A DNA stretch of 34,541 bases from Candidatus Cloacimonadota bacterium. GTDB lineage: Bacteria > Cloacimonadota > Cloacimonadia > Cloacimonadales > Cloacimonadaceae. Shown here piece by piece: positions 14,152 to 34,541 of this stretch (the stretch's first letter is position 1; every line of letters starts with the position of its first letter). A program made the translations under genes and the position numbers. Under the pieces are notes generated by a model. It did no database searches and was not told where the DNA came from. It saw only the letters and a program-made list of their open reading frames with translations. Location: contig JAKQWO010000071.1 in NCBI GenBank assembly GCA_029561955.1, forward strand, positions 1 through 34,541, in the 5' to 3' direction.

Positions 14152-14180
14152 ATTATCCGAAAATGCAGTTTACTTGTCAA
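14152..14180 (-). promoter_or_regulatory. Sigma-70 promoter of paralogue 2
   Basis: On the minus strand, TTGACA (14175-14180), 17 nt and GATAAT (14152-14157) form a strong promoter 28 nt before the start codon. The leader TTGCACCAC is shared with the 803-4630 gene, showing that the duplication included the regulatory region. Confidence 0.8.
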
Positions 14181-14240
14181 GCAAAATATCAGCCAAAGGT
14201 CATTTTATTTTCCTGCAGCGGCGTTTGAAGGGACGGACTG

Positions 14241-14296
14241 TGGCCGGCGGTCGCTAAAGCGCCGCATGTACGGGCACCCGTACAAGGTGCCTTTTT
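14241..14296. repeat. Short palindromic repeat copy C with adjoining hairpins
   Basis: GGCGGTCGCTAAAGCGCCGC (14247-14266) belongs to the short palindromic family. It is followed by the palindrome GTACGGG-CA-CCCGTAC (14268-14283). Overlapping it, GGCACC (14273-14278) pairs with GGTGCC (14286-14291) before TTTTT, a terminator-like structure on the plus strand. No plus-strand gene ends nearby, so a terminator role is doubtful. Confidence 0.5.
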
Positions 14297-14397
14297 CGCC
14301 CTTAATTACCCCTGAAAAACCGAGAATATATCGAAACATTTGACTTTTTGAAAAGGTTCACCTCCTTTCTCGGCCCTTCCCCGCCCAAACGTGTAAC

Positions 14398-14601
14398 CTA
14401 TTGCAATCCTATGCCATTCCTGCTCGATGGAGGAGGAGCCGAGCAGGGGCGGGGCGGGGAAGCCGCATAAACAGCGGCTTTAAGGTAGGTCAAAAACGGC
14501 TGTTTCCTGTTACTTTTTCCCGTCCGGAAGTCAAAATTTTCGGAAAGACCTGCTTTTTCCGACACCCGGGCGCGTAAATGAACTCCTACTAAAATAGTAG
14601 G
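14398..14601 (+). repeat. 204-bp structured intergenic element, copy 1
   Basis: It begins CTATTGCAATCCTA and ends with CCTACTA-AAA-TAGTAGG. The first ~87 bases match the reverse complement of copy 2 (34338-34541) with about seven mismatches. The rest is more diverged, yet both copies are 204 bp with the same landmarks in order. Three hairpins are kept: CCTGCTCG/CGAGCAGG with a 13-nt loop; (AA)GCCGC-ATAAACA-GCGGC(TT); and the terminal CCTACTA/TAGTAGG stem. A GGGGCGGGGCGGGG run between the first two could form a quadruplex. There is no credible ORF. It may be a non-autonomous mobile element or a structured RNA. Confidence 0.75.
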
Positions 14602-14617
14602 TGTTTGATTTGTGTAG

Positions 14618-14640
14618 GGTCGGTCGCTGGACCGCCGATT
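14618..14640 (+). repeat. Short palindromic intergenic repeat, copy D
   Basis: GTCGGTCGCTGGACCGCCGAT matches copy F (GGGCGGTCGCTGAACCGCCGAT) with few differences; the GGCGGT/ACCGCC-type stem is partly retained. Downstream, GTACAC (14658-14663) pairs with GTGTAC (14677-14682), another small hairpin in this repeat-rich gap. Confidence 0.5.
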
Positions 14641-14692
14641 TGTCCGGGCACATGTACGTACACTTGTGGAGGTATAGTGTACGAACGATTAC

Positions 14693-14725
14693 TGTACACC
14701 GGCGCTTCGGCGAGCGCCCGTACAC
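14693..14725 (-). repeat. Short palindromic intergenic repeat, copy E
   Basis: Read on the minus strand, TACGGGCGCTCGCCGAAGC followed by GCCGGTGTA is nearly identical to copy A at 597-623. It starts 7 bp after the TonB-receptor stop codon on that strand. It could fold as a hairpin, but it lacks the T-run of a terminator. Confidence 0.6.
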
Positions 14726-14731
14726 GCTTTC

Positions 14732-34113: not shown

Positions 34114-34337
34114 ACCTGTAGCCTATATCTACCACATGGATGCTGCTTTTTCAGGTAGCATTCAAGGCTGAAGGTAACACTATATGTCACTTGAATACCG
34201 TATGCTTCAAACGGAGTGTTGGTGCCCTTAAGTACTAACTTTTGGGATGGAACCAAGGTTTTCACCGTGTCCAAATCCGATACCGGAATTTAGGATCACG
34301 AAAACTGCAAATGGGTGACAGCAGCGATGGCTTATAT

Positions 34338-34541
34338 CCTACTAAATTAGTAGGTGTTCATTCCAGTGACTTGGAGCCGGAAAAGGTCGGTGTTTTTGAA
34401 ATATTTGCCCTCCGATCAGGAAATGGTTACAGGAAATGGCCATTTTGGACCCCTCTCAAAGCCGCTGTTTATGCGGCGTCCCTGCCCCGCCCCTGCTCGG
34501 CTCCTCCTCCATCGAGCAGGAACCACGTAGGATTGCAATAG
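34338..34541 (-). repeat. 204-bp structured intergenic element, copy 2 (may run past the window edge)
   Basis: This is the inverted copy of 14398-14601. Read on the minus strand it starts CTATTGCAATCCTA at the last base of the window and ends with hairpin CCTACTAATTTAGTAGG (34338-34354). The CCTGCTCG/CGAGCAGG hairpin and GCCGC-ATAAACA-GCGGC hairpin are both intact, while sequence after them is diverged. The 34114-34337 stretch before it holds no gene I can support. Confidence 0.75.

Follow-up and report, generated by a model that had tools for sequence, protein, structure and literature searches.

What is the 204-bp sequence that occurs twice, in opposite orientations and between genes, in this 34,541-nucleotide stretch of a Candidatus Cloacimonadota genome (the whole stretch is called the window in what follows)? 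The original prediction offered two answers, a conserved noncoding RNA or a MITE-like nonautonomous element. The homology on which it rested is genuine: positions 14398–14601 of the plus strand align without a gap to 34338–34541 of the minus strand over 204 bp (79% identity, E 5.7e-46), the near-perfect agreement noted for the first ~87 bases is interrupted by about eight differences, and the terminal CCTACTA/TAGTAGG hairpin does close both copies. The 204 bp are, however, not the natural length of the element. Among 43–45 copies from the same genome, column conservation climbs near 14290 (CCTTTTTCGCCCTTAATT) and drops directly past the 3′ palindrome, which gives copy 1 a full extent of about 14290–14607 on the plus strand, or ~318 bp. 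The second copy (34334–34541, minus strand) lacks its 5′ part because contig C63, whose end is that of the window, stops at 34541; this is an assembly effect, and the equal lengths of the two stretches are explained by this truncation together with the near absence of indels among copies. Runs of N interrupt the core of several copies in a sister genome, and the repeat is probably also the reason why assemblies of these genomes are broken there, as happens where contig C63 stops.

Copy 1 begins with a 5′ arm (CCTTTTTCGCCCTTAATTACC..., 14290–14332, plus strand as are the next four features) that is variable in sequence and nearly fixed in length. It is followed by inverted repeat 1, GAAACATTTGAC (14333–14344), whose TTG..CTT columns are invariant across three species and which is complementary to inverted repeat 2, GTCAAAATTTTC (14530–14541; consensus GTCAAATATTTC). 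Between these repeats lies a GCCGCAT block (14462–14468), whose CGCAT columns are invariant in 24 aligned sequences from the three species, and the 3′ end is formed by the palindrome AACTCCTACTAAAATAGTAGGTGTT (14581–14605), which in copy 2 reads AACACCTACTAATTTAGTAGGATAT (34334–34358, minus strand). The inverted repeat (ATTTGAC/GTCAAAT) brackets the core and not the ends of the element. The 25-bp palindrome usually closes the 3′ end, though a few copies carry it at the 5′ end; three copies (L021, L073 and L109) are closed at their 3′ end by two tandem palindromes and another (L032) is framed by one on either side, a pattern suggesting that the palindrome is able to duplicate or to act as an insertion site. 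The scarcity of indels had raised the suspicion of a coding sequence, a reading dismissed by stop codons in all frames of the element; it has no coding capacity. Nor does a transposase lie inside the element.

The two copies first noticed are far from being the only ones. The search of the whole genome and its relatives that the original prediction had proposed disclosed, in the source genome (G000; 2.13 Mb in 81 contigs), 40 places that match the whole or most of the query, and four further copies were traced from stray palindromes, bringing the number to at least 44. The element was also found in two of the five same-genus genomes searched, G002 and G003, at a copy number similar to or above that of G000 (about 40 or more scored copies each); a 360-kb sample of G003 holds 15 copies, approximately one per 20–25 kb, which extrapolates to ~96 per genome. 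Fifty-eight of the 60 relatives searched gave no match to the element, and the viruses, plasmids and phages searched gave none either, on which ground an origin from any of these was rejected. A 25-base degenerate pattern run over 84,980 species genomes returned only the Cloacimonadota MAGs UBA3900 and JPNG_metabat.107 together with four scattered matches, by our estimate about as many as chance gives; the presence of the family in the two MAGs supports the Cloacimonadota affiliation assumed in the original prediction. Exact sites of the palindrome CCTACYAWWWTRGTAGG, a 17-mer motif, number 37 in G000, 21 in G002 and 16 in G003; outside these three carriers the relatives searched have a single site, which lies in G043. 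The best reading of this distribution is that the repeat is new and lineage-specific, being found so far in only three species of one Cloacimonadota genus.

The copies are intergenic and, with genes called by longest open frames only, their flanking genes are more often divergent (30) than convergent (12). On the same gene calls the orientation of the element relative to same-strand neighbours is 24 against 15, a bias that is not significant. On one side of copy 1 a 1281-aa protein is encoded that carries a Por-type secretion sorting domain, on the other a TonB-receptor-like protein; the promoter-like site of the downstream gene (14152–14180) falls outside the element, which lies upstream of it. 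The nonsignificant bias and the position of this site led us to discard a promoter or 5′ UTR element. At one locus, L010, a CRISPR-like array adjoins a copy of the element.

Could the element act as an RNA, that is, as a structured small RNA or an RNA family encoded in many copies? Its blocks are conserved with their length kept, each species allows inverted repeats and hairpins to be drawn, the stems CCTGCT/AGCAGG of G000 and CTTGTG/CACAGG of G002 occupy the same columns, and across species RNAalifold finds four pairs with changes on both sides. All four of these pairs, however, lie within repeat units and owe their double changes to the symmetry of those units, and the stems themselves are a by-product of inverted 11-bp units; the predicted stem CCTGCTCG/CGAGCAGG, for example, consists of two units of the array described below. 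Phased inverted repeats, it should be cautioned, yield drawable hairpins and can mimic a structured RNA. Rfam gave no match to the element in the window at the gathering threshold, and its relaxed application (E up to 1) to nine loci returned only tRNAs and one chance tRNA-like match. Mean folding z-scores are similar on both strands (plus, −1.6 to −2.3; minus, −1.7 to −1.9), and in four G000 stems, counted over the copies of that genome, A-C combinations outnumber G-U overall (50 vs 37), a count that points neither to RNA pairing nor to one strand being favoured. The covariation test that had been suggested, performed as mutual information within G000 and within G003, picked out no base pairs, subfamily differences dominating the signal, and consensus folding reached only −3.2 kcal/mol (102 sequences) and −3.7 kcal/mol (24 sequences). 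These results rule out a structured RNA as the main reading and leave it improbable; the first of the two answers originally proposed is not borne out. Two further features noted in the original prediction, the GCCGC/GCGGC stem and a G-rich run, have no counterpart in the homologous columns of either sister species and so are not conserved, and a G-quadruplex was discarded because the G-run is absent from G002.

The hairpins arise from the architecture of the core, which is a dyad-symmetric array of six 11-bp units. In copy 1 the units L1 (GTAACCTATTG, 14393–14403), L2 (CAATCCTATGC, 14404–14414) and L3 (CATTCCTGCTC, 14415–14425) stand on the plus strand and are followed by three inverted units on the minus strand, which read on the plus strand as GATGGAGGAGG (R1, 14426–14436), AGCCGAGCAGG (R2, 14437–14447) and GGCGGGGCGGG (R3, 14448–14458). 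With GGCGGGGCAGG at R3, as in most copies, this is also the commonest series of units in G000. Copy 2 retains units L2 to R3 (34481–34535, minus strand), L1 being cut by the contig end. The corresponding series are GTAACTCTTGG GTTTTCTTTGG GTTACTTGTGG and, inverted, ATCCCAAAGGA GACCCACAGGA GCCCCTAAGGG in G002, and CTAACTGCCTG CTTTCTTACTC CTTACTTACTC and, inverted, GAGGAGCAGGA GAGCAGCAGGG GCGGAGTTGGC in G003; the unit is of the CCTGCTC type in G000 and G003 and of the CTNTGGG type in G002.

When the consensus of each species is matched against itself at lags of 4 to 33, a lag of 11 comes top in all three (z 4.1, 4.4 and 3.5 for G000, G002 and G003), z-scores to be read with the qualification that the shuffles behind them preserve composition only and that the three species, being homologous, do not provide fully independent tests. 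The consensus of G002 and that of G003 also display the 22-bp harmonic. In the individual copies, a lag of 11 gives the best self-match for 117 of 121 cores (43/43 in G000, 24/26 in G002 and 50/52 in G003); outside the core it comes top in only 15/121 of the 5′ parts and 10/121 of the 3′ parts of the element. Compared with its own reverse complement, the core gives peaks at shifts of 0 and ±11 in all three species, which places the centre of symmetry at 14425/14426, with three units on one side of it and three inverted ones on the other. Counted from the GCCGCAT block, AGG triplets stand at −28 and −17 in almost every copy, whichever of the three species it comes from, and a third is found at −6 in two of the species.

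The spacing within the element is as regular as the array. From inverted repeat 1 to CCGCAT the distance is 123 in 43/43 G000 copies, 122 in 22 of the 26 G002 copies (121 in three others) and 133 in 47/49 G003 copies, and the same stretch includes a 21-nt spacer that is merely 54–70% identical inside each species. The modal distance from CCGCAT to inverted repeat 2 is 68 in G000 and G003 and 57 in G002, where four copies retain the long form. The inner distances differ between species by 10–11 bp, or about one 11-bp unit. Near-fixed spacing of this kind would be required of sites that share a single helical face, and we infer from it a link to a DNA-bound protein. The original prediction took uneven conservation combined with an unchanged length as an argument against a recent neutral duplication; this spacing and the identities of the successive blocks lend that argument good support. 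Within species the core is 85–89% identical, the 5′ arm 55–62% and the 3′ arm 37–49%; between species the figures fall to 51–59%, 43–48% and 35–45%, respectively.

A periodicity close to one helical turn on both sides of a centre recalls the sites of DNA gyrase, which favours the intergenic BIME-2 repeats of Escherichia coli and whose motif there has a central cleavage region between two flanks of 10.75-bp periodicity and spans ~130 bp (PMC6379681). In favour of an analogous gyrase wrapping site, the symmetry of the element, its length scale and its frequent placement between divergent genes are similar, as are the many intergenic copies. The gyrase motif, however, is a degenerate variation in G/C, whereas the units found here are discrete, species-specific in sequence and conserved at 85–89%; moreover, gyrase is universal, and a restriction to three species would be left unexplained. 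We regard a gyrase site as very unlikely.

The history of individual loci can be followed as well. In the orthologous pair L110/L232 an alignment between species extends over the flanks, the 5′ arm and a 5′-placed palindrome, and the core is each species' own sequence; at least some copies have therefore been inherited by descent while their core was replaced in concert. Over the orthologous pairs as a set, core likeness is not above chance and the arms show a weak tendency only. Several positions are common to species in the same orientation (L110/L232, L109/L235 and L029/L221). The pairs compared for position form a biased set, since their loci had been retrieved as carriers of the element; the 360-kb G003 sample is less biased. 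Other positions are inverted, among them copy 1 of the window relative to its G003 ortholog L173; inverted orthologs may result from independent insertion or from flipping in place, the spacers being too diverged for a choice. In at least one position, L014/L227, both flanks are conserved and the element is absent from G003, in a spacer too divergent to define a junction or a target-site duplication.

Conserved positions and concerted change would also be expected of a resident chromosome-organising site, resembling a centromere or the site of a nucleoid protein, selected by the host and occasionally gained or lost. The dense dispersed placement (one copy per 20–25 kb or so in G003), the many positions conserved across species, the rigid phasing, and arms inherited vertically around a core changing in concert all fit such a role. 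There is a precedent in parC/ParR: ParR of plasmid R1 needs at least two 11-bp repeats (PMC9426499), and those systems likewise have tandem short repeats about one helical turn apart, the sequence of which varies between related systems; the array does consist of tandem short repeats phased on the helix. It differs from parC in having three units facing three inverted ones and in tens of chromosomal copies, known par sites being one or a few per replicon. The element is also missing from other species of the same genus and family, and no orientation polarity is apparent along the G003 contigs; neighbouring copies along contigs, as read by eye, are 16 times in the same and 11 times in the opposite orientation, which is not significant. 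An organising site strikes us as a doubtful, though not negligible, alternative. The same small chance attaches to a bolder conjecture: that up to ~100 dispersed dyad-symmetric phased arrays per chromosome anchor a dedicated DNA-binding protein with a role in shaping or segregating the chromosome, and that array and protein co-evolve so fast that all arrays of a species switch specificity together (CCTGCTC in two species, CTNTGGG in the third). This would be an undescribed system.

We favor another explanation and consider it probable: the element is a high-copy, noncoding, nonautonomous intergenic repeat of double-stranded DNA, whose core is a helically phased, predicted protein-binding site. 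Double-stranded DNA would be its working form, with six 11-bp sites disposed in two-fold symmetry along the same helical face. A sequence-specific protein, its preference differing between species, would bind this array as an oligomer, and the fixed spacing would hold the sites in register. The family may have spread by rare copying mobilised in trans, and gene conversion or repeated re-copying could homogenise the core. The primary role of the bound complex is more likely the spread of the element than a function in the host chromosome. Several observations weigh against this explanation: neither a transposase nor a DNA-binding partner was identified, the genome searches returned only copies of the element and no autonomous relative sharing its ends, a clean empty site bearing a target-site duplication did not come to light either, and rigid spacing could in principle reflect a fold of RNA or single-stranded DNA. 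Dispersed intergenic repeats are common in bacteria, and an internal architecture that predicts function is rarely seen; this element unites a phased array of two-fold symmetry with spacing that is nearly absolute, concerted evolution of the core only and a partly conserved genomic position. If a protein that reads the array were found, the family would provide a natural experiment on the genome-wide co-evolution of binding specificity and target sites, with six sites per locus, dozens of loci, three species and one species-wide switch of motif.

How does such a repeat compare with known mobile families? The second of the original answers, a MITE-like element, holds as far as the many dispersed noncoding intergenic copies, the differences in presence and absence and the lack of an internal transposase are concerned, but no target-site duplication or autonomous partner was found. 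With its ~318 bp the element falls below the roughly 600 bp of MITEs; membership among them is unproven because its ends and target duplications could not be fixed. Like the Correia/NEMIS, ERIC/RU-1 and RUP sequences (reviewed in PMC2229807), it is short, noncoding, multi-copy, intergenic and lineage-restricted, and some bacterial MITE-like sequences bear sites for proteins such as IHF (PMC2229807). It differs from them in having no demonstrated terminal inverted repeats or target-site duplication, and in a core that is a dyad-symmetric phased 11-bp array, homogenised unlike the arms.

A REPIN-type repeat moved by RAYT (Y1) transposases deserves separate mention, since RAYT-like genes are present in two of the three species, G002 and G003, and REPINs also keep their length while the spacer varies (PMC3116915); REP/REPIN-RAYT systems share with the element a dispersed intergenic placement, lineage-specific sequence and palindromic parts (PMC3116915). 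No RAYT was detected, however, in the 99.5% complete G000, the RAYT genes of G002 and G003 have a different repeat family on their flanks, and the element comes within ~0.7 kb of only one of them, its closest copy lying outside the flanks retrieved for the rest. In place of two inverted REP ends around a spacer of fixed length, the element has a conserved core and least-conserved arms, and it is much longer than a REP doublet. With its RAYT genes beside a different repeat and none in G000, this mechanism was rejected as the least probable of those weighed here.

For the trans-mobilised copying in our preferred reading, other candidate enzymes were also set aside. Tyrosine recombinases are not carrier-specific, every genome of the genus having 1–3 PF00589 matches, and a mobiliser based on reverse transcriptase (RT; group II intron, retron or diversity-generating retroelement) was dismissed because RT genes are not specific to the three carriers and have no element nearby. 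The sole RT match in G000, L239 (G000:C34:15515-16093), lies in an 848-aa open frame that resembles a Cas6-RT-Cas1 fusion. Four loci (L236, L237, L238 and L240) encode RTs of 344–370 aa with a GNLTSQ.FAN motif, similar to those of diversity-generating retroelements; they occur in four of the six genus genomes and not in G000.

The RAYT-like Y1 transposases of the two sister species (221 aa, with an MPNHVHVLI motif) are encoded at L194:1204-1869(+), L193:1156-1821(+) and L195:850-1515(-), each with short palindromes of the repeat type GGTCGCTTGCCATAGCGACC / GGCGCTTTGGCAAGCTCC on either side. GTAC-tagged repeats similar to these are seen in the window near 14240–14300 and 14620–14730. A second dispersed intergenic repeat, a long hairpin of ~110 bp (CTTCCTTACTTAGCCGCCCGGTGATTACTCGG...CCGAGTATCACC...GGCATCGCCCTGCGGGTAAGNAAGG), is common to G000 and G003; it stands upstream of the element at L024, L031, L033 and L111, and further sites are L226:8221-8332 and L230:4562-4670.
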